Part shown: positions 29,171-48,240 of the stretch, piece by piece
Numbering within the stretch: the first letter of the stretch is position 1
How the letters are laid out: every line of letters starts with the position of its first letter
Source of the DNA: Aquiflexum balticum DSM 16537
Lineage (GTDB): Bacteria > Bacteroidota > Bacteroidia > Cytophagales > Cyclobacteriaceae
Reading direction: 5' to 3'
DNA: 64,000 nucleotides
NCBI RefSeq assembly: GCF_900176595.1
Contig: NZ_LT838813.1
Span: 3,986,001 to 4,050,000, forward strand
Translations under genes and position numbers: made by a program
Notes under the pieces: generated by a model
What the model was told of the DNA's origin: nothing
Seen by the model: only the letters and a program-made list of their open reading frames with translations
Database searches by the model: none

Positions 29171-29281
29171 ATGGACAGCGCAGCACTTAGGGAATTAGTA
29201 AGGGATTATCAACTTGGTTTGCGGGATGACATCGAAGTGCTGGAATCCTATTTCAATCATGTGTGGTATTTTATGGAATAA
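29171..29281 (+). pseudogene. Boundary gene, 5' fragment, copy A
   Basis: Start of a small unknown protein (MDSAALRELVRDYQLG, then LRDDIEVLESYFNHVWYF), interrupted after codon 34 by foreign sequence that supplies an early TAA. The missing part, with a second copy of the last 58 bases, resumes at 30857 beyond a split HipA module. The whole family protein would be about 110 residues; I do not recognise it. Confidence 0.75.
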
Positions 29282-29283
29282 AT

Positions 29284-29309
29284 AAAGTTGGTGATATTTC
29301 ACCGACTTT
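29284..29309 (-). terminator. Terminator of the split HipA module
   Basis: AAAGTTGGTGA / TCACCGACTTT, an 11-bp stem with one wobble and loop TATT. On the minus strand it is followed by ATTTATT. It lies 29 bases past the HipA N-domain gene stop and just inside the junction with the boundary gene. Confidence 0.7.
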
Positions 29310-29337
29310 ACTTCTTAATCATATAGTAATCTTTTTA

Positions 29338-29763
29338 TTAAAGGCTAGTTTCTAATTCATAAGGATTTGAAATTGTTCGCTTTCCAAATCGCTCCAAAAG
29401 TTTCACATCATTAGTTACTTCTATGTTTTCTTTTTTCAAAATTTCCTTCACTTTTGGTTGTTTCAATCCAGGAATCCTTATTTTGAAAAAAGGCCATAAT
29501 TCCTGACTACAGTAAACTTTTTCAACATCTGGAAAACCTACTATAAGATTGAGATCCTCAGAATTTGACTTAAAATCATGTGCATACTTGAAGCACCATT
29601 TGTTATTCGAATAAGTCAGCTCACCCACTTTTATATTTTCTAAATGAAGATAAAATATCTTTTCTGACTCTTTATAAGTTGGATTACTTGAGATGTAATG
29701 GGATCGCCGTTGATCATCTTCTTTATCAAACCATTGCCAAAATTTGTTAAACTTATTTTTCAT
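29338..29763 (-). CDS. HipA N-terminal-domain protein (HipS-like)
   Basis: 141 residues starting at ATG 29763, one base after the kinase stop (TAAGATG), so translation is coupled. The region VGELTYSNNKWCFKYAHDF, then VGFPDVEKVYCS and LWPFFKIRIPGLKQP, matches the N-terminal subdomain of HipA toxins, which exists as a separate HipS in HipBST systems. It lacks catalytic residues and may restrain or complete the kinase. A longer start at 29805 would overlap the kinase by 41 bases. Confidence 0.75.
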   Translation of the reverse strand: MKNKFNKFWQWFDKEDDQRRSHYISSNPTYKESEKIFYLHLENIKVGELTYSNNKWCFKYAHDFKSNSEDLNLIVGFPDVEKVYCSQELWPFFKIRIPGLKQPKVKEILKKENIEVTNDVKLLERFGKRTISNPYELETSL

Positions 29764-29764
29764 C

Positions 29765-30763
29765 TTAGATATTCCTAATTTTTTCAAATCTTTTATGAAG
29801 CACAATTTCTATTAATTCTTTTCTGTTTTTAGAAAAATAAATAAAAATATCTTCATTTAACATTTTGATTACTTGATCCTCCATTTCGGAAGTACTTAAA
29901 GAAACGACAATTTTTTGGAATTCGTTGTTATATCTTTTAATGAAATCAACCAATTCAAAATGATTTGCTTCTTTATTCTCGTCAATACTTACTCTTGGTT
30001 TAGAACCATTGATATATTTTTCAATTTTTTTTCCATTAATGGCCTTGTAGTTTCCCAGATGCTTTTCAATGTTTTTTTCACTGAAATTCCATAAAAGTCC
30101 TCTAGCTGAATCATATATCGGAGCAAAGGTAATGATTTTATTAGTGTTTCTCACATTCTGAATTACCCCCCAATTATAGAAATGCCTATCGTTATTTCCA
30201 ACGATCGCATCAAACACCAACATTTTCACAAACTCAACCATCAACATTTCAAAGTCATTTGGAAAGACATTCCTTAAAGCATCCTTAATGAATTCAAATG
30301 TGAAAACTGATCTAGCCTCTCCTTTGTTATTGGCAATTCTTTCACCTTCTATTGTATCCCCAAAAAACTCACTGCAAATCTCCGCTCCATGTACAAGCTT
30401 TTCCTCTCTGGGATTTAAAAAATATTTGCTTAAAAAACGGATTTGGCCATTTGCAATCACTAAATCTGTCTCGTTCATTTTTAGACCCAATGTTTGACCA
30501 ATCTTATTAATGGCAAATTCAATTATGGATTCATGTGGATACCATTTTTCTGCTGTTTTTGCAATATATGGGATCCATGATTTTTTATTTCCCTTTTTGA
30601 TTTTGGAATCTTTGGTAAATTTGTAAAGTTTAATAAACTGCTTTGGGGCATCCCCGTCTAAAGGATAATCCAAAACATAGTAGTTTTTCTCTTTTAATTT
30701 GGGGATTTTGGATTCCTTTAATATAACTCCGGAATATTCTATGGACTTTTCTTTTCTCAACAT
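29765..30763 (-). CDS. HipA-family kinase lacking the N-subdomain (HipT/CtkA-like)
   Basis: 332-residue serine/threonine kinase of the HipA toxin family. Catalytic loop NNDRHFYNWG (190-199) and metal-binding APIYDSARG (214-222) are intact; the ATP-side RSVFTF segment lies near 151-156. The N-terminal HipA subdomain is encoded by the next gene. HipT inhibits translation by phosphorylating tRNA synthetases in studied cases. Here the order is kinase first, N-domain second, the reverse of E. coli hipBST, and no HipB-type HTH gene is adjacent. Confidence 0.8.
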   Translation of the reverse strand: MLRKEKSIEYSGVILKESKIPKLKEKNYYVLDYPLDGDAPKQFIKLYKFTKDSKIKKGNKKSWIPYIAKTAEKWYPHESIIEFAINKIGQTLGLKMNETDLVIANGQIRFLSKYFLNPREEKLVHGAEICSEFFGDTIEGERIANNKGEARSVFTFEFIKDALRNVFPNDFEMLMVEFVKMLVFDAIVGNNDRHFYNWGVIQNVRNTNKIITFAPIYDSARGLLWNFSEKNIEKHLGNYKAINGKKIEKYINGSKPRVSIDENKEANHFELVDFIKRYNNEFQKIVVSLSTSEMEDQVIKMLNEDIFIYFSKNRKELIEIVLHKRFEKIRNI

Positions 30764-30856
30764 AGGTTAACAAAACTAAAATTATCCAATACAAAAATAG
30801 CTGGATTTAAGATCAAAATCATTTTTTGTAATAAAATGATGCATTTAGAGATATTT

Positions 30857-31152
30857 GGTATGGTTTGCGGGATGATATCGAAGTGCTGGAATCCTATTTC
30901 AATCATGTGTGGTATTTTATAGATGGAGATGGATATGAGCTTTCACTATTGTATGGCAAGGGAAAATATGCCATCTTATACCATCACCGGAGGTTGAGGC
31001 AGGTTGCCATTAATTTTCTGAGCGAATCCAATCCACTCAGGGACCTTACGCTTTTTGTCAGTGGCTTGGAGGGACGGTTTGGGATATCTGTTGAGGAATT
31101 TCTTCCTAGGATACTGGCGGAGTTTGCATTGGTGGAGGGGAGGGATAATTGA
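30857..31152 (+). pseudogene. Boundary gene, 3' fragment, copy A'
   Basis: Starts with a 58-base near-duplicate (one difference) of the end of copy A and then continues the frame: IDGDGYELSLLYGKGKYA, YHHRRLRQ, ESNPLRDLTLFVSG, FLPRILAEFALVE, ending with TGA after the TAA-free frame. It has no proper start. Together copies A and A' rebuild one gene split by the HipA module. Confidence 0.75.
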
Positions 31153-31201
31153 AGGGCTAGGTGCTTTAAAGAAACTGTTTGTATAGTCTGGAGCTCAAAA
31201 G

Positions 31202-31225
31202 GTTGACAATTATTCTGTTGTCAAC
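31202..31225. terminator. Hairpin terminator between copy A' and DUF2235
   Basis: GTTGACAA / TTGTCAAC around an eight-base loop, with T-rich flank on both sides. It can end transcription of the minus-strand DUF2235 gene. Confidence 0.65.
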
Positions 31226-31261
31226 TTTAATGACAATAGATATTTTGTCTTGATTATTATT

Positions 31262-32365
31262 TTACTCATTTTTATTCCCTTTTTGATAATAAACTATTTC
31301 TTTATCGAATTCAATATTTGATAGACACTTGAGATTTTCAGGTTTATAGCTCTTATCAATCTTCTTTTTGATCGCAACAGAATGATGAATAAGGCTTCCT
31401 ATTGAGATTTCTCTAGATTGTGGACAAAAAAACTTAAATATTCCTTTATAAGAATTATGGATTTGTTGTAAATGGTCCGGTGGCTGAAATTTTCCACCTA
31501 TACCAAAAACGTATTTATCTACTTTTTTCTTATCTAGTCTAAGACCTAAACCTGAAGCCTCTCCAAGCATCCAGACTAATGATATTTTTGAAAGTCCCTC
31601 TTCAGGATAAGAACCTCCAATATCAGAATGAACCCCCGCGAAATAAACCTCCTTTAGGTCTTTATGAGTATTCGGATTAACTTTTTGAAATCTAAATTTT
31701 TTTCTCTTTTCGTCAATAGCAACTGCATGTCTAACAGATTTAATATATTTTAAATCATAAGTATATGGAAGGTTGGATTTTGAGAAAAAAACATTGCCTA
31801 CGGACGATACTGTATCCCATAATCCCATAAATGCAATTTTACCTTCTCCTCTAGAAAAGGAGCTTTTTATTCGAGCAACAATTTTTACATGGCCTGAAAT
31901 CCTATTTCTCCCTACTAAACCATTTTCAATATCCCTTTTTAATTCCTTATTAATATAGTTTTCATAAAGGTTATAAAGTTGCTCCATATGTGCTGTATTG
32001 CCTTTTTGAAGAATGCCAAACATTCTAATAATTCCAGCAACAACTCTAACAGTATAAGCCCCTCTGCTAAAGCCGAAAAAGTATATCTTGTCTTCATCAT
32101 TATAATTTTCCATGATGAATTTGTATGCATCGAGAACGTTATTCTTTAAAGAATAACCAGAAACCATAGCCTTGAACTTAAACCATTCTTTACTTCTCTC
32201 ATTATCCACCCATAAAGGAGTGGTGGTACCTAATCCTGGCGAGTAGTAACACAGTTGTTGAGACGATTTTTCTAAGCACGCAAACAAATGGACTATATTA
32301 GAATTCTCATTCACCGTTACTTTATTACCGGTACCATCACAGCAAACGACAATGTTTCTTGACAT
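31262..32365 (-). CDS. DUF2235 alpha/beta hydrolase (Tle1-like)
   Basis: 367-residue predicted lipase/esterase. The nucleophile motif GFSRGA places Ser100, CCDGTGN lies at 8-14, GLWDTVSSVG and HSDIGGSY supply the usual acid and oxyanion elements. DUF2235 domains occur in type VI phospholipase effectors of the Tle1 group and as free-standing genes in defence islands. No secretion gene is near, so an intracellular membrane-damaging toxin is a possible role. It lies alone on the minus strand with a module-edge hairpin upstream. Confidence 0.8.
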   Translation of the reverse strand: MSRNIVVCCDGTGNKVTVNENSNIVHLFACLEKSSQQLCYYSPGLGTTTPLWVDNERSKEWFKFKAMVSGYSLKNNVLDAYKFIMENYNDEDKIYFFGFSRGAYTVRVVAGIIRMFGILQKGNTAHMEQLYNLYENYINKELKRDIENGLVGRNRISGHVKIVARIKSSFSRGEGKIAFMGLWDTVSSVGNVFFSKSNLPYTYDLKYIKSVRHAVAIDEKRKKFRFQKVNPNTHKDLKEVYFAGVHSDIGGSYPEEGLSKISLVWMLGEASGLGLRLDKKKVDKYVFGIGGKFQPPDHLQQIHNSYKGIFKFFCPQSREISIGSLIHHSVAIKKKIDKSYKPENLKCLSNIEFDKEIVYYQKGNKNE

Positions 32366-32414
32366 AAAAAAGAGTTTAATGGAAGTATTACAATTAAAGA
32401 AAAGAATCGAGATA

Positions 32415-32442
32415 AAAAAATACCGTGAATAAGGTATTTTTT
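32415..32442. repeat. Module-edge hairpin AATACC / GGTATT
   Basis: AAAAAATACC and GGTATTTTTT arms around GTGAATAA, 50 bases upstream of the minus-strand DUF2235 start. Same orientation of the core on the plus strand as the other copies. Confidence 0.6.
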
Positions 32443-32526
32443 AATATCTGCTTCATATAGAAACTTAAAGGCGAAGAATATGGTATGGAGAGTGTACCCC
32501 CTTCTGGGTGAAGAATAGCTTTGGCT

Positions 32527-32549
32527 AGGAGTAGATTGCATCTACTCCT
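32527..32549. terminator. Strong hairpin
   Basis: AGGAGTAGAT / ATCTACTCCT, a 10-bp perfect stem with loop TGC, followed by TTCTAT. No gene ends nearby on the plus strand; it may be a leftover terminator. Confidence 0.5.
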
Positions 32550-32691
32550 TTCTATCATTGGAATTTATAATTACACATCAGGTCAGGGCTAGATAAAACT
32601 TAAGGTGAGGGGTATAAAGTTGTACTTCTATGCTTTGTATGTTTCCTAGGTTGTTTTATTATCTACAAATTTTGATTCACTGTATTCTGTA

Positions 32692-32768
32692 ATCGGTAAT
32701 TACAAGTGCACCATTTTCTGTAAATAAGAATGTGCCATATTTGGCAACAATGATGAACCACCAGTAAT
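32692..32768 (+). repeat. Left copy of a direct repeat flanking the DUF6035-like gene
   Basis: Begins CGGTAATTACAAGTGCACCA and matches 34858-34930 (CGGTTATTACAAATACACCA) imperfectly over about 75 bases, including TGTAAATAAGAATG against GGTAAATAATAATG. The pair brackets the gene at 33078. Confidence 0.6.
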
Positions 32769-32770
32769 TT

Positions 32771-32790
32771 CTTTGGGGCATGCCCCAAAG
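32771..32790. other. Perfect 20-bp palindrome
   Basis: CTTTGGGGCATGCCCCAAAG reads identically on both strands. It lies just beyond the left direct repeat. It could be a cruciform or dimeric protein site, or a resolution site of a lost element. Confidence 0.6.
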
Positions 32791-33077
32791 GGATTTTGGA
32801 CTATTTTTCTGATCTTCTAAATCATCTAGCATTTCATGAGTGAATATTGAAAAACTCTAATTGGTATTTTTGGAATTCCTGAATGGAGGTATTTAATGTG
32901 AATTAACAGGAGGAAAACATTTGCTAGGACTTTATCTAAATTGGTTGAAAAATTATCAACAAACTCAGATCTGATTTTTCCCGACAACCATTGTCATTTT
33001 AGCGAATTTTTCTGTTGAATTGAAAGCTAAAATTTTCCTTTGTACCTATATTCACAGAAATACAATCAATCATCCCA

Positions 33078-34826
33078 ATGAGATATAATAAAATCAACAT
33101 AGTAAGGGTAAAAGAGAGTAAAACCATCATTGATGTAAAGGAGCAATTTAAAGAGAGAAAAGATTTTTTTTCTTTTAGAGAGAAAGCGTATGAAGAAAAG
33201 TTGGAATTTGAATGTTTGCAGTGTGGACAGAAAATTTCCATTTCCAAAAGCAGTAGAAACAACCTGTACTTTAAACATAATCCCAATACCACAGCTTGCC
33301 TTCTTAAGGATTCACGGTTTTCTGAAAGTGATTGGGAAATTTACAAAAAGATAGTTTACTCCAAAGAAAGCGATCGTCACAAATTTTTAAAGGAAGCAAT
33401 AGGGAATAAACTTCAAAGAGTCGCAGGAATCGATCTTAATAAGCTTTGGATTGATGACCGATATCTAATTATTGACGGTGAAAAGAGAAGACCCGATGTT
33501 TATTGTGAATTCCGAGATAGGAAAATTGTCTTCGAAATCCAGCTTTCTGATCTTTCACCAAGGTACATGATTGAAAGAAATTCTTTTTATGAAAAACATG
33601 GAATATACCTAATATGGATTCTTGATAATTTCAATTACTTAAATCAAAGTAACAGCCATTTAAACATTAAATACCTATCAGGCCACCAAAACTTTTTTGT
33701 TTTCAATGAATCATCATCTGAATTTAAGTTGGATTGTAGATTTAAGAAAAATTATATTTTCGAAAAGAAAGAAGTCCGCTGTAAATGGCAAACTGCTACT
33801 ATAGGATTGGAATCTTTGATTTTTGAAGAAAATCACAAGGAAGTATACTATTACCATTATGAAAACGGTAAAAAAAGTAAAGATGAATATCTGAAACGAC
33901 TCAATGCCAAAAAGCAAAAAAGTATTGTAGAATCAAAAATGATTCAAGAAAAGGCATGGAAAATTTCCCGTGTTGAAGAATTTATTAAGAATCTGAAATT
34001 TTACTACAAACATAGAATCGCTGATTATAGCCATTTTCGCGCTTATTTGGAAAATAGTGAAAAAGGCGAATTACAAATCATCAATGAAAGAATTGGATAT
34101 GAAAAAAGTCCAAATAAACTTTTTTTATTTTTAGAAACTACCAAGAATAAGAATTACCAATTTCTAAGTTTTATTTTAGATGTAATCCAGATAAAAATGG
34201 ATATAAACCTCAAAAATGACAAAGGGAAAACTATTTTTGAAATTATTGTTTCTGATTTGGAGTTTTCTTTAGAGCAATTGTTGAGTATGGTAAAGTCACT
34301 TTTGCATAGAGGTTATATTTTACAGGAATCTGATTTTAAAGCTTGGACTGAGCGTGGGTTTGAACAAAAAGATTCTGGCTGGTATTATTTGTTTGAAAAA
34401 TTCACAGGTGGACAACATTTGGATGTTATAGAAAAAGTTTTCGAAATGAGACATGGAAATGTAGTTCTCATGATAGAGTCTGTTAAAAGGAATATATTTA
34501 TTCATTCTAATTATGGTTCTCCTTCCGAAATTAGGAATTGGGTGGCGTTTGCAAACAATGCTATAGAATATTATGCTGAATATTGGGAATTTATAGAGTT
34601 AGCATTTCAACATTATGGTAATTGGGAGGAGATTGTTAATTCTGACCTTTTGAACAAGCAATCTTTAAATAATAAAATGGAAAGGTATCAAAAGAACAAA
34701 CCAAAAATTGCTGTGGAGTTTGTGGAAGTTTTTTTCGAACTCTATGAGGAGGTTTACAATACTTCTCCAGATCTAAAGAATTCGCATAGTTACTACCTTA
34801 TTGATTGGGGATTTTATAGTGAGTAG
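33078..34826 (+). CDS. CoiA/DUF6035-like protein
   Basis: 582 residues. The N-terminal part has a cysteine-containing segment (ECLQCGQKISISKSS) followed by FKHNPNTTACLL. Then RRPDVYCEFRDRKIVFEIQLS gives a D...E-x-Q nuclease-like core as in CoiA-type and DUF6035 proteins. The C-terminal half is helical with no assignment. CoiA-like proteins act in DNA uptake in Firmicutes, but the Bacteroidota forms are often island cargo. The gene stands alone and is bracketed by 75-base direct repeats, so it is a discrete module. Confidence 0.65.
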   Translation: MRYNKINIVRVKESKTIIDVKEQFKERKDFFSFREKAYEEKLEFECLQCGQKISISKSSRNNLYFKHNPNTTACLLKDSRFSESDWEIYKKIVYSKESDRHKFLKEAIGNKLQRVAGIDLNKLWIDDRYLIIDGEKRRPDVYCEFRDRKIVFEIQLSDLSPRYMIERNSFYEKHGIYLIWILDNFNYLNQSNSHLNIKYLSGHQNFFVFNESSSEFKLDCRFKKNYIFEKKEVRCKWQTATIGLESLIFEENHKEVYYYHYENGKKSKDEYLKRLNAKKQKSIVESKMIQEKAWKISRVEEFIKNLKFYYKHRIADYSHFRAYLENSEKGELQIINERIGYEKSPNKLFLFLETTKNKNYQFLSFILDVIQIKMDINLKNDKGKTIFEIIVSDLEFSLEQLLSMVKSLLHRGYILQESDFKAWTERGFEQKDSGWYYLFEKFTGGQHLDVIEKVFEMRHGNVVLMIESVKRNIFIHSNYGSPSEIRNWVAFANNAIEYYAEYWEFIELAFQHYGNWEEIVNSDLLNKQSLNNKMERYQKNKPKIAVEFVEVFFELYEEVYNTSPDLKNSHSYYLIDWGFYSE

Positions 34827-34857
34827 ATTTTATATCATTATCAATTAGGGATTTTTA

Positions 34858-35072: not shown

Positions 35073-35510
35073 TTAAGTCTTTTTAGGCCTAAGTCTATGT
35101 TCCAATTGCCAAATCAGGAATAAAGTCACAAATTCTATCAAAATCATCCCTAAAACGGCAAATTTTAGATCCAACTCAAAAAATAAGGCTATCAAACTTG
35201 GTAAATACACTGCTGGCATTGTCCAAAAGCTTCCTGCCATGCTGCATATATGAAGAAGATTAGGATCACTGCCCGTCTCTTCACCCTTTGAAAATTTTGT
35301 TTCCAAAATCAGATAAACGGTAGAATTCACAAGCCAGAAAGGAGCTGTAATTGCAAAACAAAGAACCAATAACTTTATGGTTTCCAATTCGAATACAATT
35401 CCAGGATCATATATAAATAGGAATAGTATACCTGGTGCTACAGATGCAAAAAATATAAGAATTAAAGTCATGAAAGATACAGGCGTGATTTTACTTATGT
35501 CTAAGCTCAT
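35073..35510 (-). CDS. Membrane protein of unknown function
   Basis: 145 residues with four hydrophobic segments (about 12-33, 45-70, 90-112 and 117-137). No family is recognised. It lies 72 bases downstream of the second DUF5131 gene on the same strand, in the place that the HEPN-like gene holds in copy 1, so it may have been captured as an alternative third gene. Confidence 0.6.
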   Translation of the reverse strand: MSLDISKITPVSFMTLILIFFASVAPGILFLFIYDPGIVFELETIKLLVLCFAITAPFWLVNSTVYLILETKFSKGEETGSDPNLLHICSMAGSFWTMPAVYLPSLIALFFELDLKFAVLGMILIEFVTLFLIWQLEHRLRPKKT

Positions 35511-35582: not shown

Positions 35583-36311
35583 TTATACATGTCTTTGAAG
35601 CTCAATCTCCGGCATTTCATCATAAGTTTTCCCATTGAGTTCCCTTCCGGCTTTTTTCTTATTTTTTCCTCCCCATTGCTTGAAGAAAAATGCCACATTG
35701 GATTGCTGGCATTGCTCCTGTATATCCAATACCCATTCCGGATCCATGGGCCGGGGTTTGTGTCCGCTTTCTCCACCCACTATCACCCAGTCGATGCCGA
35801 TAAGGTTGAGGTTTGACAAAGGCCCTATTAGAGGTTCGCAGGACAAGAACTTCACACGGGCCCCGCACTGTCTCAAGAAATCAATCCTTTCGGTCACTTT
35901 TTCGTCTTCCACAGATACACCCATCCAGATATTATGTGGCCAAATCAATTGGTCGCTGATTTCCGCCAATCTATCTGCTCGCTTGGTCAATACCTGAAAC
36001 ACATGTTGACCATTGTCCCTCATCACCTGAAAGACTCTCTGGATAAATTCCAAGGGCACGTCCTTATGGAAGAGATCGGACATAGAGTTTACAAATACCA
36101 CCTTGGATTTCTTCCATGTGTATGGAATACCCAAGGCATCCTCATGTGTCTTTACTTTCTTAAATCCATCCTTGTATTTGTCCACCCCCATTGCTTTGAG
36201 CCTTTTGGACATGACTTCTGCATAGCAGAATTTACATCCCGGTGAGATTTTGGTACATCCAGTCACTGGATTCCAAGTTAGTTCGGTCCATTCAATTGAG
36301 GTTTGTGCCAT
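35583..36311 (-). CDS. Three-Cys-motif protein, DUF5131 (Gp37/Gp68), copy 2
   Basis: 242 residues, nearly identical to the product at 26877. It keeps [17 protein letters not shown] with the C-x6-C-x2-C cysteines and all other family signatures. Sequence identity at the DNA level ends near the ccggcatttc word inside the last codons, so the C-terminus differs (EIELQRHV). It follows TcmP copy 2 by 107 bases. It belongs to a 2.4-kb duplication of 26890-29275. Confidence 0.88.
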
Positions 36312-36418
36312 AATGCTTGATTTTTAGAATGTCTTTTTTGAGAATTACGTTTTCTTCCAATAGTAAAACTAGTCTCTTTCAACCATTAGCCAATTGTTTT
36401 GGCACCTGTTGTCCCAAA

Positions 36419-37519
36419 TTATTTTTTGACTGAAAAGATAACCAACTTTTGATTCTTGATTGCAGAATCATAGCTAATCAATGGGTTATTCCCTTCATAA
36501 TCGATTAGGTTTTCTTTTTTCATTCGAATTATTTCTTCCCTCGCATGCGAACCTATATGGCCCTTTGAAAGGGTGTAATCAATAACCGATTTGTTATCTG
36601 TAATTTTTTTTGATAAAATATTATCTCTTAAATCCCTTTGGAAAGATTGGATTTTGGTCAATTTCGGTTGGTCAAAGATACCTAATTGAGCTTTAGACAA
36701 ATCATCTTCAATATCAAAGTTGGCCTCACCATTCAGACCGCTTTTTTTCCAGACTATTTCCAAAAACTTGTTTACGGCCAATTGGTGTGAAGCACCAAAA
36801 ACCAATCCATAAATACCTGATCTCTTTTTTATAGAGAAAGGATATAACTGTAAATTTGAATTTGACGGGAGCTTGTTTTTAATTGCCCCAATTAGGTTTC
36901 TGTGAATAAACTGATAGGGGTTTTTCTTCAAATCCTCTATGTCAAAATCAATAGACTGTTTGAATTCAGGTGTTTCGTCAAATCTTTTGAAATATGATGT
37001 AGAAACAAAGAATAGAAAGTCCGTCCTTTTTGATTTTTCAAGTTTGTTAATTGTATCCAACTTCAAAAATTTAACCCCGTTTTGGTCTAAAAATACAAGA
37101 GAGGGATGTTTTATGATATCAGAATAATACTTTTCAAAAGCTTTTTCAAATTCCAGATTTGAATACTCTATTTCAACAAATAACTTAAGTATTGGTTGCT
37201 CCTCAATAAAGCTACTACATGCATTTTGAAGTTCTATGAATTTAGGTTTTTTGAATTCATTAAGCTTTAGATAAATTTTTGTCCTTTTTTGAAGAATAAT
37301 ATCTGTATGGTCAAGAATCTTTTTCAAAATCCGGATGGGGCTACCTTCTATACCGTTTATGTCATATCCCTTTCCGGCAAAAAAATCGATTATACAAACC
37401 GTACCAAATCCCGACATCACAAAAGTTGGAAGCCAAGCTTGGGTATAATCCTCAAAAATTTCAAGTTTTGTGATCGTTCCTTGATCAAAAGGTTTTTCAT
37501 GCAAATCCTTAATTCCCAT
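36419..37519 (-). CDS. tcmP: Three-Cys-motif partner protein TcmP, copy 2
   Basis: 366 residues. It has the intact family motif IIDFFAGKGYD with Asp45, GIEGSP and FLDQNGVKFL. Compared with copy 1 the C-terminal part is virtually unchanged, while residues 45-110 carry most substitutions (for example DHTDIIL for DHAEIIL, SSFIEEQ for NCFIKEK). This copy looks functional. It leads the TcmP-DUF5131 operon and is preceded by the module-edge hairpin at 37566. Confidence 0.87.
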   Translation of the reverse strand: MGIKDLHEKPFDQGTITKLEIFEDYTQAWLPTFVMSGFGTVCIIDFFAGKGYDINGIEGSPIRILKKILDHTDIILQKRTKIYLKLNEFKKPKFIELQNACSSFIEEQPILKLFVEIEYSNLEFEKAFEKYYSDIIKHPSLVFLDQNGVKFLKLDTINKLEKSKRTDFLFFVSTSYFKRFDETPEFKQSIDFDIEDLKKNPYQFIHRNLIGAIKNKLPSNSNLQLYPFSIKKRSGIYGLVFGASHQLAVNKFLEIVWKKSGLNGEANFDIEDDLSKAQLGIFDQPKLTKIQSFQRDLRDNILSKKITDNKSVIDYTLSKGHIGSHAREEIIRMKKENLIDYEGNNPLISYDSAIKNQKLVIFSVKK

Positions 37520-37565
37520 AAGCTTATTTTTTAATTTATAAAGAACGTACTTTTTAAAACATTAG

Positions 37566-37589
37566 AAAATACCGTGTTTGGGGTATTTT
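37566..37589. repeat. Module-edge hairpin AATACC / GGTATT
   Basis: Duplicate of the hairpin at 28859 and equally 46-47 bases upstream of a tcmP start. Confidence 0.6.
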
Positions 37590-37798
37590 TCATTAAATAT
37601 GGGGCAAAATCAACTGATTGAAGGAAGGAAAGTTAAATATTGATTCTAATTGAAGGTGTATGGAAGTAATTGGGTTGTTATAAGTTTTCCAGAAACATCC
37701 TAGTTTCCATGATGGAAAGAGTAGGAGAGGGGTGATTCCATAAAATGATATTTTGGATATGCTTTGACTCCATCAGAAAGGAAAACTTACCCTAGGGG

Positions 37799-37878
37799 AG
37801 GATTACTGTCCAAAATACCAAGAATGCTAAATCAAAAAATCAGTTCTTATTTTAAAAACCAATTGATATATTTCTTCC
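37799..37878 (+). promoter_or_regulatory. Conserved leader of the boundary gene, copy B
   Basis: Ends at ATG 37879 and matches the leaders at 29090 and 46850 (CCAAGAATGCTAAATC and CAATTGATATATTTCTTCC). Confidence 0.55.
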
Positions 37879-38115
37879 ATGGACAACGCTACACTTAGGA
37901 AATTAGTAAGGGATTATCAACTTGGGCTAAGGGATGATATAGTAGTGCTGGAATCCCATTTCAGTCATGTTTGGTATTTTATCGATGCAGACGGATATGA
38001 ACTAACTCTTTTGTATGGCAAGGGAAAATATGCCATCTTATACCATCACCGGAAGCTGGGGCAGGTGGCCATTGACTTTCTTTGCGAATCCAAAACTTGT
38101 TATTCAAATTTGTAG
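37879..38115 (+). pseudogene. Boundary gene, 5' fragment, copy B
   Basis: Longest 5' copy: MDNATLRKLVRDYQLG, WYFIDADGYELTLLYGKG, YHHRKLGQVAIDFL, and then the frame runs into unrelated sequence near 38097 (ESKTCYSNL). The 3' overlap with the 38100 gene on the other strand marks the junction. The continuation appears at 38942 beyond a DUF6169 module, with about 155 bases repeated on both sides but roughly 15 percent different. Confidence 0.7.
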
Positions 38116-38603
38116 GATTCAAATTCTTCCATATTTGACTTGGCGAAATCTTTCAAATCATTCAAATATGGGTTGTTTTTTAAAGTAACAATTGATATGT
38201 AAGTTGTTATGGAATAATTTTCCCCATCATTTACAAGTTTAAAATCCAGTTTTTCAAACCTCTCTAATGAACTTTTGTCATACCATTTATCAAATAAAAT
38301 CTTTCTATAAAGTTCACGTTGATCTTGGCTGTCACAGATAAATATAATTGAATTTCTAACATCTTGATCGAAAAGTTCTTCAAGAAAATTAATAAGGGTT
38401 TGGCAAATTTTTGGATCAAAACCGTTTTGGTCTTTATTTCTTTTTTCTTTGGGGACAAGTGGGAAAAATGAGAAATCAAATAAAAAATCCCCATAAGGAG
38501 GAACAAACGATGATTTTTCTAGGATAATAATATAGGGTACTCCTTTGTCTGTATCAAATGAGTACCCTTTTTTAATTTGGTGTAAATTATATTGGTTTGA
38601 CAA
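38100..38603 (-). CDS. DUF6169-like protein
   Basis: 167 residues with YSFDTDKGVPYIIIL, GDFLFDFSFFP, a NSIIFICDSQDQRELYRKILFDKWY segment and a soluble alpha/beta pattern, which fits the DUF6169 family from memory. It uses a TTG start at 38603, inside the 3' end of a 53-codon gene upstream, so the two are coupled as small partner plus larger protein, a layout frequent in toxin-antitoxin modules. Function unknown. The module is wedged between two pieces of the boundary gene. Confidence 0.65.
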   Translation of the reverse strand: MSNQYNLHQIKKGYSFDTDKGVPYIIILEKSSFVPPYGDFLFDFSFFPLVPKEKRNKDQNGFDPKICQTLINFLEELFDQDVRNSIIFICDSQDQRELYRKILFDKWYDKSSLERFEKLDFKLVNDGENYSITTYISIVTLKNNPYLNDLKDFAKSNMEEFESYKFE

Positions 38604-38748
38604 ATTTAATCTTTCTATTTTCCTCGAGTTCTTTTAAATCTTTTCCCTCACGAATATAAGAAATGATTGCATTTTTATCTTCGACCTTTTTTTGAATGTA
38701 ATCGAAAATTTTAGCGTTCTTTTCGGTTTTTACGATTACTTTTTCCAT
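38587..38748 (-). CDS. 53-aa partner of the DUF6169 gene
   Basis: Short gene from ATG 38748 to TAA 38587, reading MEKVIVKTEKNAKIFDYIQK, later AIISYIREGKD and ending KFVKPI. It is lysine/glutamate-rich and helical after a short strand, as in many small antitoxin-like proteins. It overlaps the DUF6169 start by 17 bases. The gene is too short for usual length cut-offs. The antitoxin role is inference. Confidence 0.6.
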   Translation of the reverse strand: MEKVIVKTEKNAKIFDYIQKKVEDKNAIISYIREGKDLKELEENRKIKFVKPI

Positions 38749-38941: not shown

Positions 38942-39221
38942 TGATATTGAAGTGCTGGAATCCTATTTCAATCATGTGTGGTATTTTATCGATGGTGATG
39001 GATATGAACTAACCCTAATGTATGGCAAGGGAATATATGCTATCTTATACCATCACCGGAGGCTGAGGCAGCTTGCCATAGATTTTCTGTCCGAGTCCAA
39101 TCCACTCAGGGACCTTACGCTTTTTGTCAGTGGCTTGGAGGGGCGGTTCGGGATCTTTGTTGAAGAATTTCTTCCTAGGATCCTGGCGGAGTTTGCATTG
39201 GTGGAGAGGAGGGATAATTGA
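38942..39221 (+). pseudogene. Boundary gene, 3' fragment, copy B'
   Basis: Enters the frame at DIEVLESYFNHVWYFIDGDG and continues to the end (ESNPLRDLTLFVSG, EEFLPRILAEFALVE, stop TGA at 39219). It has no leader and no start codon. It is closer to copy A/A' than to copy B, which argues that B and B' did not arise by simple splitting of one gene. Confidence 0.7.
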
Positions 39222-39280
39222 GGCTGAATTGATAGGTTCAAGGATAAACCGGACTTCTTTTGTTATTATTAGAGTTAATA

Positions 39281-39297
39281 GTCTGGTTTTTCCGGAC
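39281..39297 (+). promoter_or_regulatory. Shared hairpin upstream of the Crp-like gene
   Basis: GTCTGG / CCGGAC around TTTTT, within AATAGTCTGGTTTTTCC. The same word occurs at 45927-45952 before the methionine aminopeptidase gene, at a similar distance from the start. Confidence 0.5.
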
Positions 39298-39364
39298 AGA
39301 TATATAAATTGGCAAACACTATAACTAAACTGTGCTAAACTGAAAAACTGTAGTCGATTAAAAA

Positions 39365-40341: not shown

Positions 40342-40345
40342 GAAG

Positions 40346-40982: not shown

Positions 40983-41618
40983 TTGATCATAGATTTTATT
41001 TGGTTATTGCCATTTCTGATTGTTGTCGGTTCGGGTAAAACAACAGGGGGTGAAAAAATGGCATGGATACTTGCTGTAATTTCCATCTCTCTTGGTCGCA
41101 TGGAGCGTTTATATCCTACTTGCTTCAGTAAAAAAGAAATACTAGACATGGAATCAACAGATTTATTAAAGGAATATTTGTCAAAGCAAAGCAAGGTGTT
41201 TACCACCTCACTCGGGTTGACATTGGGACAACTGGAAGAGGGGATCTATTCCAGTCATAAGTTCTCAGTTGAGGAGATTGGTTTTGATTTTGAATTGTTC
41301 ACCGAACCTGAGAGCCTGTATGAATTTATTGAAAATTATAAGTTGGAAAGTTTGGGTAAAATTGATGAAATGGGTTACCGGGACATTTGGATCAGGTATC
41401 TCAATAGGGAAGCTGAAATGGAAGTTACCCAATCAGAACTACAGGAAGCACCCTTGACTTTCAGATTATATAAAGGGAAAACAATGATTTATTCAAAGGT
41501 TTTACATTTTTATGATGAGGTAAACAGACACCTGACTTTGTCGGAAGATTTCTTTGACTATTTCCTGCATAATGAAAAAAAGTTGAATGTGGCGGTGGAG
41601 AATATGTATAGGTATTAA
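40983..41618 (+). CDS. Unknown protein, start uncertain
   Basis: The frame opens at a TTG (40983) and gives 211 residues. The first 50 (LLPFLIVVGSGKTTGG and on) are unlike the acidic, soluble remainder, which starts to look like a normal protein at MESTDLLKEYLSKQSK (41148). The N-terminal part may be read-through of unrelated sequence, so 41100 or 41148 may be the actual start. No family is recognised. Confidence 0.45.
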   Translation: MIIDFIWLLPFLIVVGSGKTTGGEKMAWILAVISISLGRMERLYPTCFSKKEILDMESTDLLKEYLSKQSKVFTTSLGLTLGQLEEGIYSSHKFSVEEIGFDFELFTEPESLYEFIENYKLESLGKIDEMGYRDIWIRYLNREAEMEVTQSELQEAPLTFRLYKGKTMIYSKVLHFYDEVNRHLTLSEDFFDYFLHNEKKLNVAVENMYRY

Positions 41619-41863
41619 TGTGGGAAAAGATAACGATGAACAAAAGATTCGAAACGCATACTGCTGCCAATACCAGATGTTTTCCAAGCAAAACCCTGCT
41701 TACAGTAAGTATAAAATATAACTTAAAATGATCATAACCAAATCAGAAAGACGGGACATTGACCTTGAAAAGATCATTGCATTATAAGGCAAACAAATGC
41801 AGTGCTTCTGATAATGGACTTTGGCTCATGTAACTCATTAACTGTAGCCGCAAAAAACAATTC

Positions 41864-42556
41864 CTATTTCAATCCCATCAGTTCCTCTACCAACTTCCAG
41901 ACCATCGTACAGGGATTATGGTTGGCGTAATCTTGTTGCCCTATAAGGTTTTCGGTCAGATTTTTGGCATTGCGGATGGCATTATCCTGGTTGCCGTAAG
42001 TTTTAAGTAAGTCATACATTTCTTCACTGTTTTTCTGATATCGATAATGCTCCCCTATATGGGGCCTCAGGTTACCTTCTATGAGTTGCTGGTAATCAGT
42101 TCTATTGATTCCATTGTTATAGAAATGAAAATGCAGGAGATACCAAAGTTCAAAAGCCTCGTTGCTCCATGCACATCCTATTTCAGGACTTGAATTGCTA
42201 CATCGTTGTATGGCACTGTTAAAATCCTGGGCGGAGAAGCTATCCTTATCAAAAACCACCCACAACCTGTCGATGGGTCGGCTGTTTTCCTTTTCGTAGG
42301 AGAGTTTCAGCCGCAGGGCTTCATCCACCAATGACTGAGTGTTCCTTCCAGTCCCTTCAATATCTATCTGATAGAAGGTTAATACCCCTTTAGGCAAATC
42401 TTCCTTTAAACCCTTGAAATAATTCGGTTCGGTCTTTTCACCCTCACAGACGATAAGGTAGAATTGACGTTTGGTTCTAAAGTCTCTCTTTCTCTTTTCC
42501 TCTTCTCTGGCAAATCGCTTCAGGTGTTCATTGGGGATTTTTATCTTCCTTGCCAT
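41864..42556 (-). CDS. rloB: RloB-family (Toprim-like) defence protein
   Basis: 230 residues. FYLIVCEGEKTEPNYFKGL (about 33-51) is the Toprim-type acidic start, DRLWVVFDKDSFS (about 95-107) the DxD element and CAWSNEAFELWYLLHF the family signature. RloB/AbiLii proteins work with an AAA ATPase (RloA/AbiLi) in abortive phage defence. The start overlaps rloA by 16 bases, so the two are translationally coupled. Confidence 0.88.
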   Translation of the reverse strand: MARKIKIPNEHLKRFAREEEKRKRDFRTKRQFYLIVCEGEKTEPNYFKGLKEDLPKGVLTFYQIDIEGTGRNTQSLVDEALRLKLSYEKENSRPIDRLWVVFDKDSFSAQDFNSAIQRCSNSSPEIGCAWSNEAFELWYLLHFHFYNNGINRTDYQQLIEGNLRPHIGEHYRYQKNSEEMYDLLKTYGNQDNAIRNAKNLTENLIGQQDYANHNPCTMVWKLVEELMGLK

Positions 42557-43833
42557 TCCCTGTCGGATTTTGAAAGGTTACCAATAAACGGAATGGCCCC
42601 ATATCGGCCCTCGATATAGTCTTTTTCAAAGGATCTGTCCTTACGGATTGTTTTCCCTTCTTCTTTATATTCTACCAAGGAATAGATGCCGGAAGCCCCG
42701 AATTTGTCTTTTTCTACAAAATAGATCTGATCTCTCCGGTAATTGCCATAATTCAACAAGTTGGTATCATGGGTCGCAAAAATCAACTGGGCATTTTTAG
42801 GGTTGAATTCTCTGGAATTGAACAGTTTCGTAATCGCAAGTGTTAGAATGGGATGCAGGTTCGCATCAAGTTCATCCACTACCAATAACCCACCGTCATT
42901 CAAAACATCGAACACAGGCCCGGAGATATTAAACAACTTATTGGTTCCTGAAGATTCCTGACTGCGCATGTCAAATTCAACTTGGCCAGCTACCATATCT
43001 TTTGAATCATACTTCCTGTGAATGGTCTTGATATCTATACGGAATGCTCCCTCCAAGTCGGTTACCAATTGTTTTACCAGTGTTTCTGGCATATCACCAG
43101 GAAGTTCTTTGGGGTCGAATGGTTTTTTGGAAATAGAGATATCCTCAAATCCCAAATCCAGTTTTTTATAGAAATCCAAAAGGGTATTTCTGGTTTGGCT
43201 GTTTTCCAGCATCTCAAAAGTCACCCCTTTGTAACCTTCATGCTTTAAGCCTGAAATGGCAATGAAGTTGTTGAACCATTTCATGATCATTTTGGAAATC
43301 CTGCCATTGAACTGGTCGGCCACTGCCAGAAACAGTGCGTTGTCCCTGGTGCGTTCTTCCAAATCCTTTCCTTCAGGAAATCCTTTCATTACCTCAATAC
43401 CCTCATTTTCCCGAAGGAACAAGGGTTTTTCGGACTGTTTTTTAGCTTCAAACAACCATTCAGAATGGATCCTATGATCATCCACTTCAAACCCGTAGCG
43501 ATATCTAATGCCATCAATCAGAAATACAGCTTCAAAGTATGATGGGGAGTGTTCGGTCGCTGTATTTAATAGGAAGGGAACAATATCCAACTCATCAGCT
43601 GATGATTGCTCAAAGGACTGTAGCACTAATCGTCTCATGGTGGACATGGCTTTGATCAGGTTGCTTTTGCCACTGGCATTTGCACCATAAACTACCGCCC
43701 CACGCAGTAAATCGAAGCGTTCTGTGGAAATGATATTGGTATCAACATGCTCCTTGATGGAGGTGGCTATCAAGCTGAGCGTTGTTTTTGACTTGAAGGA
43801 CAAGTAGTTCCCTACTGAAAACTCTATTAGCAT
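42541..43833 (-). CDS. rloA: RloA-family AAA ATPase (AbiLi type)
   Basis: 430 residues, SMC/RecF-like ATPase. Walker A GANASGKSN (50-58), Walker B GGLLVVDELDANLHP and the H-loop ATHD are clear. FSVGNYLSFKSKTTLSL at the N-terminus is typical of the AAA_15/AAA_21 class. Together with RloB it forms an OLD-like two-component defence system. The pair starts just right of a 21-base scrap of the boundary gene. Confidence 0.9.
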   Translation of the reverse strand: MLIEFSVGNYLSFKSKTTLSLIATSIKEHVDTNIISTERFDLLRGAVVYGANASGKSNLIKAMSTMRRLVLQSFEQSSADELDIVPFLLNTATEHSPSYFEAVFLIDGIRYRYGFEVDDHRIHSEWLFEAKKQSEKPLFLRENEGIEVMKGFPEGKDLEERTRDNALFLAVADQFNGRISKMIMKWFNNFIAISGLKHEGYKGVTFEMLENSQTRNTLLDFYKKLDLGFEDISISKKPFDPKELPGDMPETLVKQLVTDLEGAFRIDIKTIHRKYDSKDMVAGQVEFDMRSQESSGTNKLFNISGPVFDVLNDGGLLVVDELDANLHPILTLAITKLFNSREFNPKNAQLIFATHDTNLLNYGNYRRDQIYFVEKDKFGASGIYSLVEYKEEGKTIRKDRSFEKDYIEGRYGAIPFIGNLSKSDREWQGR

Positions 43834-44179
43834 TTTGACTATGTTATGAGAAATATTCTCAAATATAGTTAAATTACTCTATATTATGAGTTAGTAATGA
43901 GGAAATTTCTCATTATTCCAGAGTTTTGTGTGAGATGATATCGAAGTGCTATTTATTTTGAATAAAATTCGGAATTTGATTATTGATTTCGGATACAATT
44001 TATTTATCCTTAGTCTCAAACCAGGTATTTATTCCAATTATTCCATTAGGATATTTTTTTTCTAAAATTTGAGAGCATCTGTTTTTCTAGTGATTCCAAA
44101 ATGGGAAAATTGGATTTGATATTTTTACCTTAGTAAGTCTGGGATTTCTCTCCACTACTCACTCCAATCAAAATAAAGA
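43834..44179. other. 346-base spacer with a boundary-gene scrap
   Basis: AT-rich; contains the rloA promoter region and the short match to the boundary gene at 43931-43951. No gene is seen. Confidence 0.5.
43931..43951 (+). pseudogene. Boundary gene, short scrap
   Basis: AGATGATATCGAAGTGCT is the same word as in copies A and A' (codons for DDIEVL). Matching stops after 18-20 bases on the right and at once on the left. The scrap is between the rloAB and CoiA-like modules. Confidence 0.5.
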
Positions 44180-44998
44180 ATGAGATACGCAATAGTCAAT
44201 GGTACAAAAACTGAGGCAACCAAAGGTCTCAAAGGAATATGTCCAAGTTGTAGGTCAGAATTGATTGCAAAATGTGGTGAACGAAAAATAAACCATTGGG
44301 CGCATATTGGAGTTCGATCCTGTGATCCTTGGTGGGAACCAGAAACTGAATGGCATCGAACTTGGAAAAGCAATTATCCTGTTGAATGGCAAGAAGTCTT
44401 TTTGACTGATGAAGAAACAGATGAAAAGCATATTGCCGATATCCGAACTTCGCATAATCTTGTGGTTGAGTTTCAACATTCTTATTTAGATAAAGCGGAA
44501 CGAACTTCACGAGAAAGGTTTTATAAAAATATGGTTTGGATAGTAGATGGTACACGCTTAAAAAGAGACTATCCCCGTTTTCTTAAAGGGAGGGAGAATT
44601 TCCGTAATACCAATATGAGAGGCATTTTTAAAGTTGATTTAATTGAAGAGGTCTTTCCTGAAAATTGGCTTACCAGTTCCGTTCCTGTCATTTTTGATTT
44701 TAAAGTACTGGGCACAATTGACAATATAAACGATTTTCGAAATCTACTATATTGTTTGATTCCTGTTCGAATAGGTAGATATGCAATACTTGCCGAAATA
44801 CCGCGTAAGGCTTTTATTAATGCTTCAATTGACGGAAGTTGGTCATTAAGAGTTCAGGAATTCATTGAGAATTTAACACAACCAAAACCAGAACGACAGA
44901 ATCAAATACCAGAACCCCAAGTTCAAGTAAGGAAGAATGAACCTTCACATTATTTTGACCCACGGAAAAATAAATTTATAAAAAAAAGACGCTTATAA
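44180..44998 (+). CDS. CoiA-like nuclease-family protein
   Basis: 272 residues. CPSCRSELIAKCGERKINHWAH (about 21-42) is the zinc-like cysteine/histidine segment, WHRTWK near 54-59, HIADIRTSHNLVVEFQHS supplies the D...E-x-Q endonuclease-like core, and RERFYKNMVWIVDG follows, all as in CoiA-family proteins. CoiA supports recombination of incoming DNA in Gram-positive bacteria; here no competence genes are near, so a stand-alone role in the island is likelier. Confidence 0.8.
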   Translation: MRYAIVNGTKTEATKGLKGICPSCRSELIAKCGERKINHWAHIGVRSCDPWWEPETEWHRTWKSNYPVEWQEVFLTDEETDEKHIADIRTSHNLVVEFQHSYLDKAERTSRERFYKNMVWIVDGTRLKRDYPRFLKGRENFRNTNMRGIFKVDLIEEVFPENWLTSSVPVIFDFKVLGTIDNINDFRNLLYCLIPVRIGRYAILAEIPRKAFINASIDGSWSLRVQEFIENLTQPKPERQNQIPEPQVQVRKNEPSHYFDPRKNKFIKKRRL

Positions 44999-45193
44999 CT
45001 GTTTGGACAAAATGTCTAAGCCAATCTATCTTTCCTAGATGTTCGTGGGTTTACTCATGGAAAGAATGGAGTCCAGTTTCCCAATGGGGCATGACCTATT
45101 GGGAAACTTCAAAAAGTAGACGAATGGTCGGGAGAGAGTAGGAGGGAGATAGCGATTTGAGTGGTCAAGATAGGTATAGTCTATATCTTTGAT

Positions 45194-45529
45194 TTAGTGG
45201 ATTTTTAGCTTTAATGAATAGTATGTATTCCAATCTTCTTCCCCAAGAAGCCTTTGATTTTTATGGACAAAATTTTGTCCTTCTTTATTTATAATAGGGG
45301 TTGAAATTGTACCTGATAGCAATTCAATATTGTCTTGGAGCAATTTGTAATCTGAATCAAAAACCGCGGCATATTTTGGTAAGGATTCTAAGAAATCTTC
45401 CAGATGATTGACTCTAAATGAATCCGTAATTTCAAATTTAAAATTTGTTGAAATGGATTGATCTGTGTTTTTATCTTTTGCGCAACCAATCAATGCTGCA
45501 ACAAGAATTAAGCATGTAAAATATTTCAT
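45194..45529 (-). CDS. Small lipoprotein
   Basis: 111 residues with signal MKYFTCLILVAALIGCAKD; the lipobox Cys is residue 16. The mature part is soluble, alternating polar residues, and unassigned. It is alone on the minus strand. Confidence 0.65.
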   Translation of the reverse strand: MKYFTCLILVAALIGCAKDKNTDQSISTNFKFEITDSFRVNHLEDFLESLPKYAAVFDSDYKLLQDNIELLSGTISTPIINKEGQNFVHKNQRLLGEEDWNTYYSLKLKIH

Positions 45530-45610
45530 GTGTTTATAATAATATTTTTATTGGTCACATGCCCGCCTGTCGGAACAGGGAATCTTCGCATGTTTTACAA
45601 CCATCTCTAG

Positions 45611-45630
45611 GCATGAGGAGAACCTCATGC
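45611..45630. other. 8-bp hairpin
   Basis: GCATGAGG / CCTCATGC around AGAA, in the GC-richer stretch after the lipoprotein promoter. No T run. Function unclear. Confidence 0.4.
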
Positions 45631-45937
45631 TCGATTTCATGTTCAAATTTATGGAATGGAAAATTCAGGCTTGTTAAGTTTTGTTAGAGAGAAATACCTA
45701 ACTCTTAATTTTTCTATAATGATTAATCTTGCAGGAGCAGAAAATCTACTTGGGGAGCTTTTAGTGGACGACAAGGGATTTTCGCTTTACTTTTTTGCCT
45801 TCGAATCATCAGGCTTTACAGGAAATATAAATTGGTACGGATTTGGCAAAAAGTACCAAGTAGTTGGCATCTTTTGTTTTAGGTGGAATTGCTAGGTTTG
45901 AGGAACCTAACTTATTTGTTTATGTTTAAGTAAATAG

Positions 45938-45952
45938 TCTGGTTTTTCCAGA
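45938..45952 (+). promoter_or_regulatory. Shared hairpin upstream of map-like gene
   Basis: TCTGG / CCAGA around TTTTT, embedded in AATAGTCTGGTTTTTCC as at 39281. It ends 55 bases before the ATG. Confidence 0.5.
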
Positions 45953-46007
45953 TAAATAGAATAGCGGTCAGGTATAAAAACATACTACATAAGAATAAAT
46001 AAGCGAT

Positions 46008-46772
46008 ATGTCAATAACAAAAGAAAGTGAATTAGTAGCCATGAAAAAAATAAGTGACGTTGTGGCCTTCACCTTAAAGGAAATGATAAAATTTGCTGAA
46101 CCAGGCATGACCACTAAAAAACTGGATGATTATGGAGCAGATATTTTAAAAAGCTATGGAGCAAAATCTGCACCTTACGAAACATACAATTTTCCAGGTT
46201 GGACATGTATAAGTGTAGATAATGAATTTTGTCATGGTATCCCATCTAGTAAAAGAATATTAAAAGAAGGTGATTTAGTAAATATAGATGTGTCAGCAGA
46301 ACTTGAAGGATATTGGTCTGACAATGGTGGCTCATTTGTTCTTGGAGAGGATATTAAGCAACATCAAAAGTTAGTTGACGCATCTAAAGAAATATTGCAA
46401 AAGGCAATTAATAATATTAAAGGGGGAGTAAAAATAGCTGACATAGGCCATCTTATGGAAACCGAAGCTAAAAAGAGAGGGTATAAAGTGGTTAAAAATT
46501 TGGGAGGGCACGGAATCGGAAGAAGTTTACACGAGCAACCGGACGAGTTACTAAACTATAAAAACAGACTTGACCATAGACGGTTTAAAAAGAACTCTGT
46601 TGTGGCAATTGAGACTTTCATTTCAACTTTATCCTCATACACAGTTGAACTTAATGACGGCTGGACAATGGTTGGTAACAAAGGTGGCTTTATGGCACAG
46701 CACGAGCATACAATTGTCATTACGGACGGACAGCCGATTATCCTAACAGAGAACAATGAGATTTTTAACTGA
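46008..46772 (+). CDS. map: Type I methionine aminopeptidase
   Basis: 254-residue cytosolic metalloprotease that trims the initiator Met. All metal ligands are present: Asp94, Asp105, His168, Glu202 and Glu233, and the substrate histidine is in FCHGIP (76). The length and lack of an N-terminal zinc extension fit type Ia. Its presence in an accessory island, apart from secY/infA, suggests a second copy beside a housekeeping map; that is inference. It is preceded by a hairpin shared with the 39365 gene. Confidence 0.9.
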   Translation: MSITKESELVAMKKISDVVAFTLKEMIKFAEPGMTTKKLDDYGADILKSYGAKSAPYETYNFPGWTCISVDNEFCHGIPSSKRILKEGDLVNIDVSAELEGYWSDNGGSFVLGEDIKQHQKLVDASKEILQKAINNIKGGVKIADIGHLMETEAKKRGYKVVKNLGGHGIGRSLHEQPDELLNYKNRLDHRRFKKNSVVAIETFISTLSSYTVELNDGWTMVGNKGGFMAQHEHTIVITDGQPIILTENNEIFN

Positions 46773-46849
46773 AAAGGGCAAAAGAATAAAACCAATCCGT
46801 TAATGATGCATATGCAATCCCATTAGGTTCTTTAAAAGTAGTTTATTGT

Positions 46850-46937
46850 CTAGGGAAGGGTTATTATTAAAAATGTCAAGAAATGCTATATAAAAAAAAC
46901 AGTTCTTATCTTAAAAATCAATTGATATATTTCTCCT
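46850..46937 (+). promoter_or_regulatory. Conserved leader of the boundary gene, copy C
   Basis: Matches the leaders of copies A and B (GAAATGCTATATAAA in place of GAATGCTAAATCAAA; TTAAAAATCAATTGATATAT identical to copy A). It ends at ATG 46938. Confidence 0.55.
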
Positions 46938-47126
46938 ATGGACAGCGCAGCACTTAGGGAATTAGTAAGGGATTATCAACTTGGTTTGCGGGATGACATT
47001 AAAGAGCTCGAAGCCTACTTCCTCCATAAATGGTATTTTATAGATGGTGATGGATATGAACTTACCCAATTAAAATTCAATAAATTCCAAGAACATATTG
47101 AGTCGGACAACTTTTTTCCTTGCTGA
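46938..47126 (+). pseudogene. Boundary gene, 5' fragment, copy C
   Basis: MDSAALRELVRDYQLG as in copy A, then diverged KELEAYFLHKWYFIDGDGYELTQ, after which the frame enters unrelated sequence (KFNKFQEHIE) near 47073. The 3' half is absent. This is the rightmost trace and may mark the right end of the island. Confidence 0.65.
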
Positions 47127-48237: not shown

Positions 48238-48240
48238 TCC

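Follow-up and report, generated by a model that had tools for sequence, protein, structure and literature searches.

How defence genes enter and leave hotspots without a recognised integrase is, to our knowledge, an open question. Defence islands and hotspots consist of conserved flanking genes around variable, defence-rich content, and one of them lies in a 64,000-nucleotide stretch of the single-contig 5.99 Mb genome of Aquiflexum balticum DSM 16537 (bases 3986001-4050000; hereafter the window). Broken copies of a small gene, referred to here as X, stand at the borders of defence-type modules in this island, and an earlier note on the same DNA had proposed that cargo is exchanged through X. 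What part does X play in the turnover of the island? We favour, tentatively and as somewhat short of an even chance, a defence hotspot whose X copies serve as homology in recombination, the joints on the cargo side being illegitimate. The observed basis, as read from the window and from the sister species Aquiflexum lacus CUG 91378 (one genome per species was compared), consists of a repeated X confined to the island, different X versions around the cargo of copy B, turnover of gene content and a mosaic block.

Copies of X are confined to a defence hotspot

The island is ~25 kb long (window ~22.3-47.35 kb) and is bounded by flanks conserved in A. lacus, with flank matches up to 22277 and from 47353 on in the window, and up to 259410 and from 284999 on in A. 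lacus (C22). Between these same flanks the gene content differs between the two species, and several defence-type gene families are found within the island, which is the arrangement of a defence hotspot.

X is numbered here as a gene of 336 nt including the stop codon (~111 aa). Six pieces are present in the window, all on the plus strand: the heads A (29171-29277, X nt 1-107, with a clear match to nt 104), B (37879-38093, nt 1-215) and D (46938-47071, nt 1-134), the tails A' (30861-31152, nt 45-336) and B' (38942-39221, nt 57-336), and a decayed relic, C (43934-44046, nt 55-168 by local alignment). The six plus-strand sites at which the earlier note saw parts of one protein of ~110 aa are confirmed, the piece that it placed at 43931 (C) being very decayed. 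When 67 kb of sequence from the window and A. lacus was scanned on both strands by local alignment (reporting threshold 17), relic C scored 27.5, compared with 17-19 for the non-X matches over the threshold. Its exact 17-nt core alone has a genome-wide E of 0.5, no better than chance, and C was missed by the whole-genome protein search. In A. lacus, a seeming fragment of X at position 277744 scored 17 and was rejected as within noise. Every X copy in the window genome is broken, whereas A. lacus has full-length frames.

The whole-genome protein search returned five X matches, all in the island, with the next match at E 1.46; the DNA search returned the same five, with every other at E 0.5 or worse. 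Neither search found another significant X in the 5.99 Mb genome. It should be mentioned that relics as decayed as C, which was found only by regional alignment, would escape the genome-wide searches if they lay outside the island.

Versions of X and a mosaic block

Two pairs of X pieces enclose cargo on the minus strand. Defence names used here are similarity matches, and the functions are predicted. Between A and A' there is a HipA-type two-gene cargo (29338-30763; Couple_hipA and HipA_C, PADLOC PDC-M03B and PDC-M03A), to whose 3' side head A is joined. Between B and B' there is a DUF6169 gene with a 53-aa open reading frame (ORF) (38100-38748). X sequence is repeated on either side of each insert: ~60 nt with one mismatch around the HipA-type pair, where the earlier note had counted 58 bases, and a 159-nt overlap with 22 mismatches around the DUF6169 pair, where it had counted about 155 diverged bases.

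The longer repeat joins different versions of the gene. Over nt 57-215, B differs from B' at 22/159 positions, while B' differs from X1, a full-length copy of A. lacus, at 13/159. Because B' is nearer to lacus X1 than to B, which would not be expected from a single gene split after the separation of the species, B and B' are, by these counts, different versions of X. Over nt 1-56 head D matches A exactly, and 13/51 of the positions that follow differ; with its A-like start and strongly diverged remainder, D has the appearance of a chimera formed from two versions of X. The identical run of A and D is 62 nt long and was reached in 0/5000 shuffles; max-chi tests with A and D place a switch at nt 60-64 (P 0.0005-0.0015). 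The starts of the tails and the relic (nt 45, 57 and 55) fall, together with the suggested switch in D at ~nt 60, within nt 45-62. The clustering is weak: with the D switch counted, 4/8 joints fall in these 18 nt (uniform P 0.029), and without it 3/7 (P 0.20), the span having been picked after inspection of the data.

A second repeat in the island includes X only at its end. The DUF5131 and TcmP pair is present twice on the minus strand, at 26877-28812 and 35583-37519, and with the X head forms a direct duplication of ~2.4 kb (26890-29277 and 35607-37985) to the left of A and B. Measured in 100-nt steps, identity between the second pair and the first varies from 90 to 100%, fully identical tracts standing beside others of ~90%, and the longest identical run, 434 bp, was reached in 0/5000 shuffles. 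Since the block is mosaic, homologous exchange or gene conversion acts in the island, to go by these identity tracts, and does so independently of X. Each block copy has a different gene behind DUF5131 (26407-26865 and 35073-35510), as though a third gene had been swapped.

The corresponding island of A. lacus

Between the conserved flanks, A. lacus carries three full-length X frames, X1, X2 and X3 (C22:270179, 272460 and 274044), and the genes between and beside them differ from those in the window. The sequence upstream of X1 corresponds to that of both A and B. X3, located behind an M24 peptidase gene, corresponds to D; this gene (46008-46772 in the window, plus strand), presumably methionine-aminopeptidase-like, is placed between X2 and X3 in A. 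lacus.

To the left of X1, DUF5131 and TcmP are reduced to their 3' ends, joined together as ~190 bp of scars. Minus-strand genes of 695, 596 and 82 aa follow, up to a palindrome at which the homology to the upstream regions of A and B starts; the N-terminal part of the 596-aa protein matches a pAgo-associated REase family (E 4e-26). Because only these 3' scars and a different operon are found there, the slot left of X1 has changed its content, and the scar, judged by the two gene ends, shows DUF5131-TcmP to be the earlier occupant. The comparison between species, with one genome of each and two genomes with an X array, thus shows turnover of content; the cargo swaps between related strains for which the earlier note suggested looking are not seen.

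The frame of lacus X2 runs 28 codons 5' of the usual start, into unrelated upstream sequence (L013:17377-17796); X2 may have arisen by a fusion at the start codon of X.

A distant X (27-28% identity) is found twice elsewhere in A. lacus, at C22:380328 and 387687, 7.36 kb apart and flanking a further gene block. Alongside, 85 nt from the end of a TPR gene located upstream recur as a direct repeat (91%), ~0.8 kb from the distant X in one copy and adjacent to it in the other. A short-pAgo module lies beyond the second copy, and genes that we take to be of relaxase type lie near the pair (region L015:7365-15975). In its layout this locus resembles the window arrangement, though it is a further case within the genome of A. 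lacus. The TPR gene failed as a clue to the identity of X: in A. balticum and one other genome it precedes a gene that is presumably MazG-like, and not X.

Selection on X and its distribution

Among 28 pairs of copies or pieces (C excluded), the dN/dS of X ranges from 0.07 to 0.36. By this measure, X evolves as a protein under purifying selection and is a gene, not a DNA site. As a structured DNA site it was rejected, since it folds no better than shuffles (one copy, lacus X1, z -0.93). X has no match above the cut-off in Pfam, PHROGs, PADLOC or NCBIfam. It was also rejected as a phage or plasmid gene, there being no match among phages, plasmids or viral contigs.

X was found in 2/59 relatives and, with a first profile, in 1/291 genomes of the order. 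A second profile found it in 5/295 family genomes, namely A. balticum, A. lacus, G449, G366 and one weak case; the matches in G449 and G366 are new, convincing and single-copy (E 1.6e-34 and 1.2e-18). Matches were also obtained in 11/395 phylum genomes, with only that in A. balticum convincing and the others, at E of at least 1.4e-4, mostly short stretches in longer frames. When the neighbourhoods of five matches were inspected (G449, G366, G006, G566 and G727), stand-alone ORFs of the size of X were present only in G449 and G366. Throughout the 59 relatives and the order, family and phylum samples, multiplied X was seen only in Aquiflexum. In these samples the array was found in two genomes only, both of Aquiflexum.

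A model for exchange through X, and its alternatives

We propose that X was multiplied in the island as direct repeats and that its copies, together with the DUF5131-TcmP block, could offer homology for RecA-type recombination between paralogues. The partner would be another copy in the chromosome, or DNA arriving from relatives whose island is similar. The gene dprA contributes little here: it is present in both genomes and also in 10/14 controls, and so widespread a gene says little on competence. A new module would be fixed by an event that is homologous at one end, within X or the region upstream of it, and illegitimate at the other. Of these two ends, the non-homologous cargo joints are observed, and we infer the homologous end only from the version differences at B/B'. 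The cargo would end up flanked by an X head and an X tail, which differ in origin at B/B' and share one version at A/A'. X may then serve as a substrate for exchange merely as a by-product, without necessarily having evolved for that role.

Several observations weigh against this model. Only two genomes carry the X array, and cargo borders without X exist at the 3' ends of DUF5131 and TcmP, at the palindrome and on the 3' side of AbiL. The 3'-side joints of the heads are scattered (~nt 104-107, 134 and 215), and beyond the cargo/X joints no clear continuation of homology was found in 15 comparisons of six flank stretches, where the lowest value, C upstream against lacus X3, was reached by 6/300 shuffles and the others by 34-282/300. 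The evidence for mosaicism within X is also qualified. A and D each share a run of 42-47 nt with lacus X3 in the same part of the gene (A 96/5000, D 24/5000), and because such runs are common to lacus X3, part of the identical A/D run reflects general conservation. The best max-chi values, P 0.0005-0.0015, come from 122 correlated tests and fail strict correction; the case for a mosaic B is weak (max-chi 0.028, switch at nt 18-33). The comparison of the M24 gene between species also deviates in the sum of squared runs (34/5000), although not in the longest run (1770/5000). Lacus X1 starts with ATT instead of ATG. Finally, A and A' are, on their full repeat, one version, so that recombination between versions is not needed there. 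The different versions that the earlier note had proposed as recombining are therefore supported for B/B' and not for A/A'. X borders defence-type modules and content differs between the species, but the note's broader claim, that cargo is exchanged through X, is still a hypothesis in view of the non-homologous joints, the X-free borders and the restriction of the array to two genomes.

The X-free borders suit an ordinary accretion of the defence island, in which X would be one accessory gene among several, multiplied and then disrupted through random insertions and deletions, with no role in exchange. This explanation, a serious one to which we give roughly a third of our belief, also accords with X joints that are not significantly clustered when the D switch is left out, and with the old relic C, from which breakage and decay would be continuous. 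It does not readily account for X pieces lying repeatedly at cargo borders, for the different versions of B and B', or for the mosaic block, which shows homologous recombination to be active in the island.

The pair A/A' raises the possibility that cargo was inserted into X with a short target duplication, through a mobile element or copying break repair. Over the full repeat (nt 45-104), A' differs from A at 1/60 positions, compared with 6-9/60 from lacus X1, X2, X3 and B and 13 from D; over the narrower nt 57-107, A and A' are no closer than other pairs. Such a pair could come from the splitting of one gene with a short duplication, or from near-identical copies that recombined, and both inserts are minus-strand gene pairs with X sequence repeated on either side. 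However, the repeats are unequal in length and position (nt 45-104 and nt 57-215), no transposase or integrase was found among the insert genes scanned (the HipA-type pair, DUF6169 and the 53-aa ORF), and for B/B' target duplication was rejected because B' is closer to lacus X1 than to B. As an account of the locus it is unlikely, being conceivable for the HipA-type pair.

Purifying selection among the X copies and the three full-length frames of A. lacus would also be expected if X were retained and multiplied for a function of its own, for example as an immunity- or antitoxin-type protein, with recombination in the array secondary. Arrays of small immunity genes have been described (PMC9484751). 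No toxin partner was recognised beside X, however, X has no match above the cut-off in the four family databases searched, and all copies are broken in the window genome. The distant X of A. lacus, moreover, follows the TPR gene, after which two other genomes have the presumably MazG-like gene instead. We consider this explanation slightly less probable still than target duplication.

Hardly different in standing, and improbable, is the stronger form of our own model, in which X is a selected docking gene, a homology arm for the swapping of defence modules with a recombination-prone spot at ~nt 45-62. On that reading the main effect of a family multiplied, as far as seen, only in Aquiflexum would be to serve as a homology arm.

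An integron-like array of cassettes, each ending in X as its recombination site, is very improbable and was rejected: lacus X2 and X3 do each follow cargo genes of the same direction, but an integron integrase (IntI) above the cut-off was found in 0/2 genomes, X (lacus X1 as DNA) shows no attC-like fold, selection on it is at the protein level, and the joints lie at several positions.

Other features of the island and its surroundings

Further defence-type matches were obtained with PADLOC. TcmP matches PDC-M30A (E 7e-138) and DUF5131 matches PDC-M41B (6e-130) and PDC-M30B (6e-127), both for the first copy of the pair only; the HipA-type pair matches PDC-M03A (2e-34) and PDC-M03B (2e-15). Next to relic C, an AbiL-type pair (41864-43833, minus strand) matches AbiLi (2.5e-97) and AbiLii (5e-31). 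The gene at 24381 matches PDC-S35 (4e-63) and has a CAP12/Pycsar-type TIR domain. DUF6169 has no PADLOC match, and the 53-aa ORF beside it no Pfam match. Relatives of the HipA-type genes were found in 3/194 order genomes (E 1e-20) and those of DUF6169 in 6/194 (E 1e-8), A. balticum included in both counts; this rarity fits accessory genes.

A palindrome close to AAATACCGTGTTTAGGGTATTTT occurs at window 24260, 28860, 32418 and 37567. There are ~29 distinct sites in the A. balticum genome, four of them within a 13.3-kb span of the island, where the palindrome is enriched. Two sites precede the TcmP starts by 48 bp, and one precedes a Tle1-like gene by 53 bp. As a boundary element it was set aside: 18/20 sites examined elsewhere adjoin at least one gene start, which chance often gives too. 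The palindrome may as well be an operator, regulatory or terminator element as a boundary element.

A 44-nt repeat (80%) links 39259-39302, 3' of tail B', with 45915-45958, 5' of the M24 peptidase gene, and may be the trace of an older junction. Just beyond the right edge of the island, a transposase-like ORF (48232-49896), presumably IS1380-like, has 31-nt inverted ends that are 90% complementary. Outside the window, the matches listed for the A. balticum genome include at least 16 tyrosine-recombinase-like frames of 280 aa with near-equal scores and without the IntI-specific stretch, for example at C1:973973-996831, 707153-713694 and 4877038-4878646; the window contains none of these listed matches, and the frames possibly represent an uncharacterised insertion element. 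In A. lacus, a ~3 kb repeat (L018:7168-10246 and L019:12930-16008, ~26 kb apart), with four genes whose displayed protein ends match, is likely a segmental duplication.

Comparison with known systems

The closest parallel is provided by the tandem immunity paralogues esaG and tipC of T7SS loci, which recombine through homology blocks (Garrett et al. 2022, PMC9484751); their copy number changes by crossovers in conserved blocks, and also between repeated neighbour genes (DUF5079). X resembles these arrays in that a single island contains several direct copies of a small gene which are not identical. Mosaics of different copies are known for esaG/tipC; here the A/D run was reached in 0/5000 shuffles but max-chi fails strict correction, and the DUF5131-TcmP block is clearly mosaic. 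Unlike esaG and tipC, X is no known immunity gene and its neighbours are whole defence modules, and its copies lie from ~1 kb to several kb apart and are all broken in the window. The same source describes partial Rhs gene copies beside small genes that recombine into mosaics (PMC9484751). Partial gene copies are likewise found at X, but neither Rhs nor any other polymorphic toxin gene was identified there.

The ends proposed for the cargo have the pattern of homology-facilitated illegitimate recombination, with one homologous and one illegitimate end (PMC3240628), which would apply here to the cargo borders. Compared with defence hotspots in general, the island has the same conserved flanks and variable content, with matches to PDC-M30, PDC-M03, PDC-S35 and AbiL; it differs in that a repeated internal gene, and not the flanks only, marks the module borders.

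The earlier note had named no described system as using such a gene as a homology arm. As far as the terms searched reach, no docking gene like X is reported, and to that extent the note holds; it has to be narrowed in view of the published recombination of small paralogues within one island (PMC9484751). Recombination of small paralogues is thus known in kind, and what differs here is its combination with whole defence modules and with a gene without family assignment. With a traceable repeated gene, the scars of a replaced pair and a sister species carrying full-length copies, the island offers a concrete case for breakpoint mapping when sequences of further strains become available.

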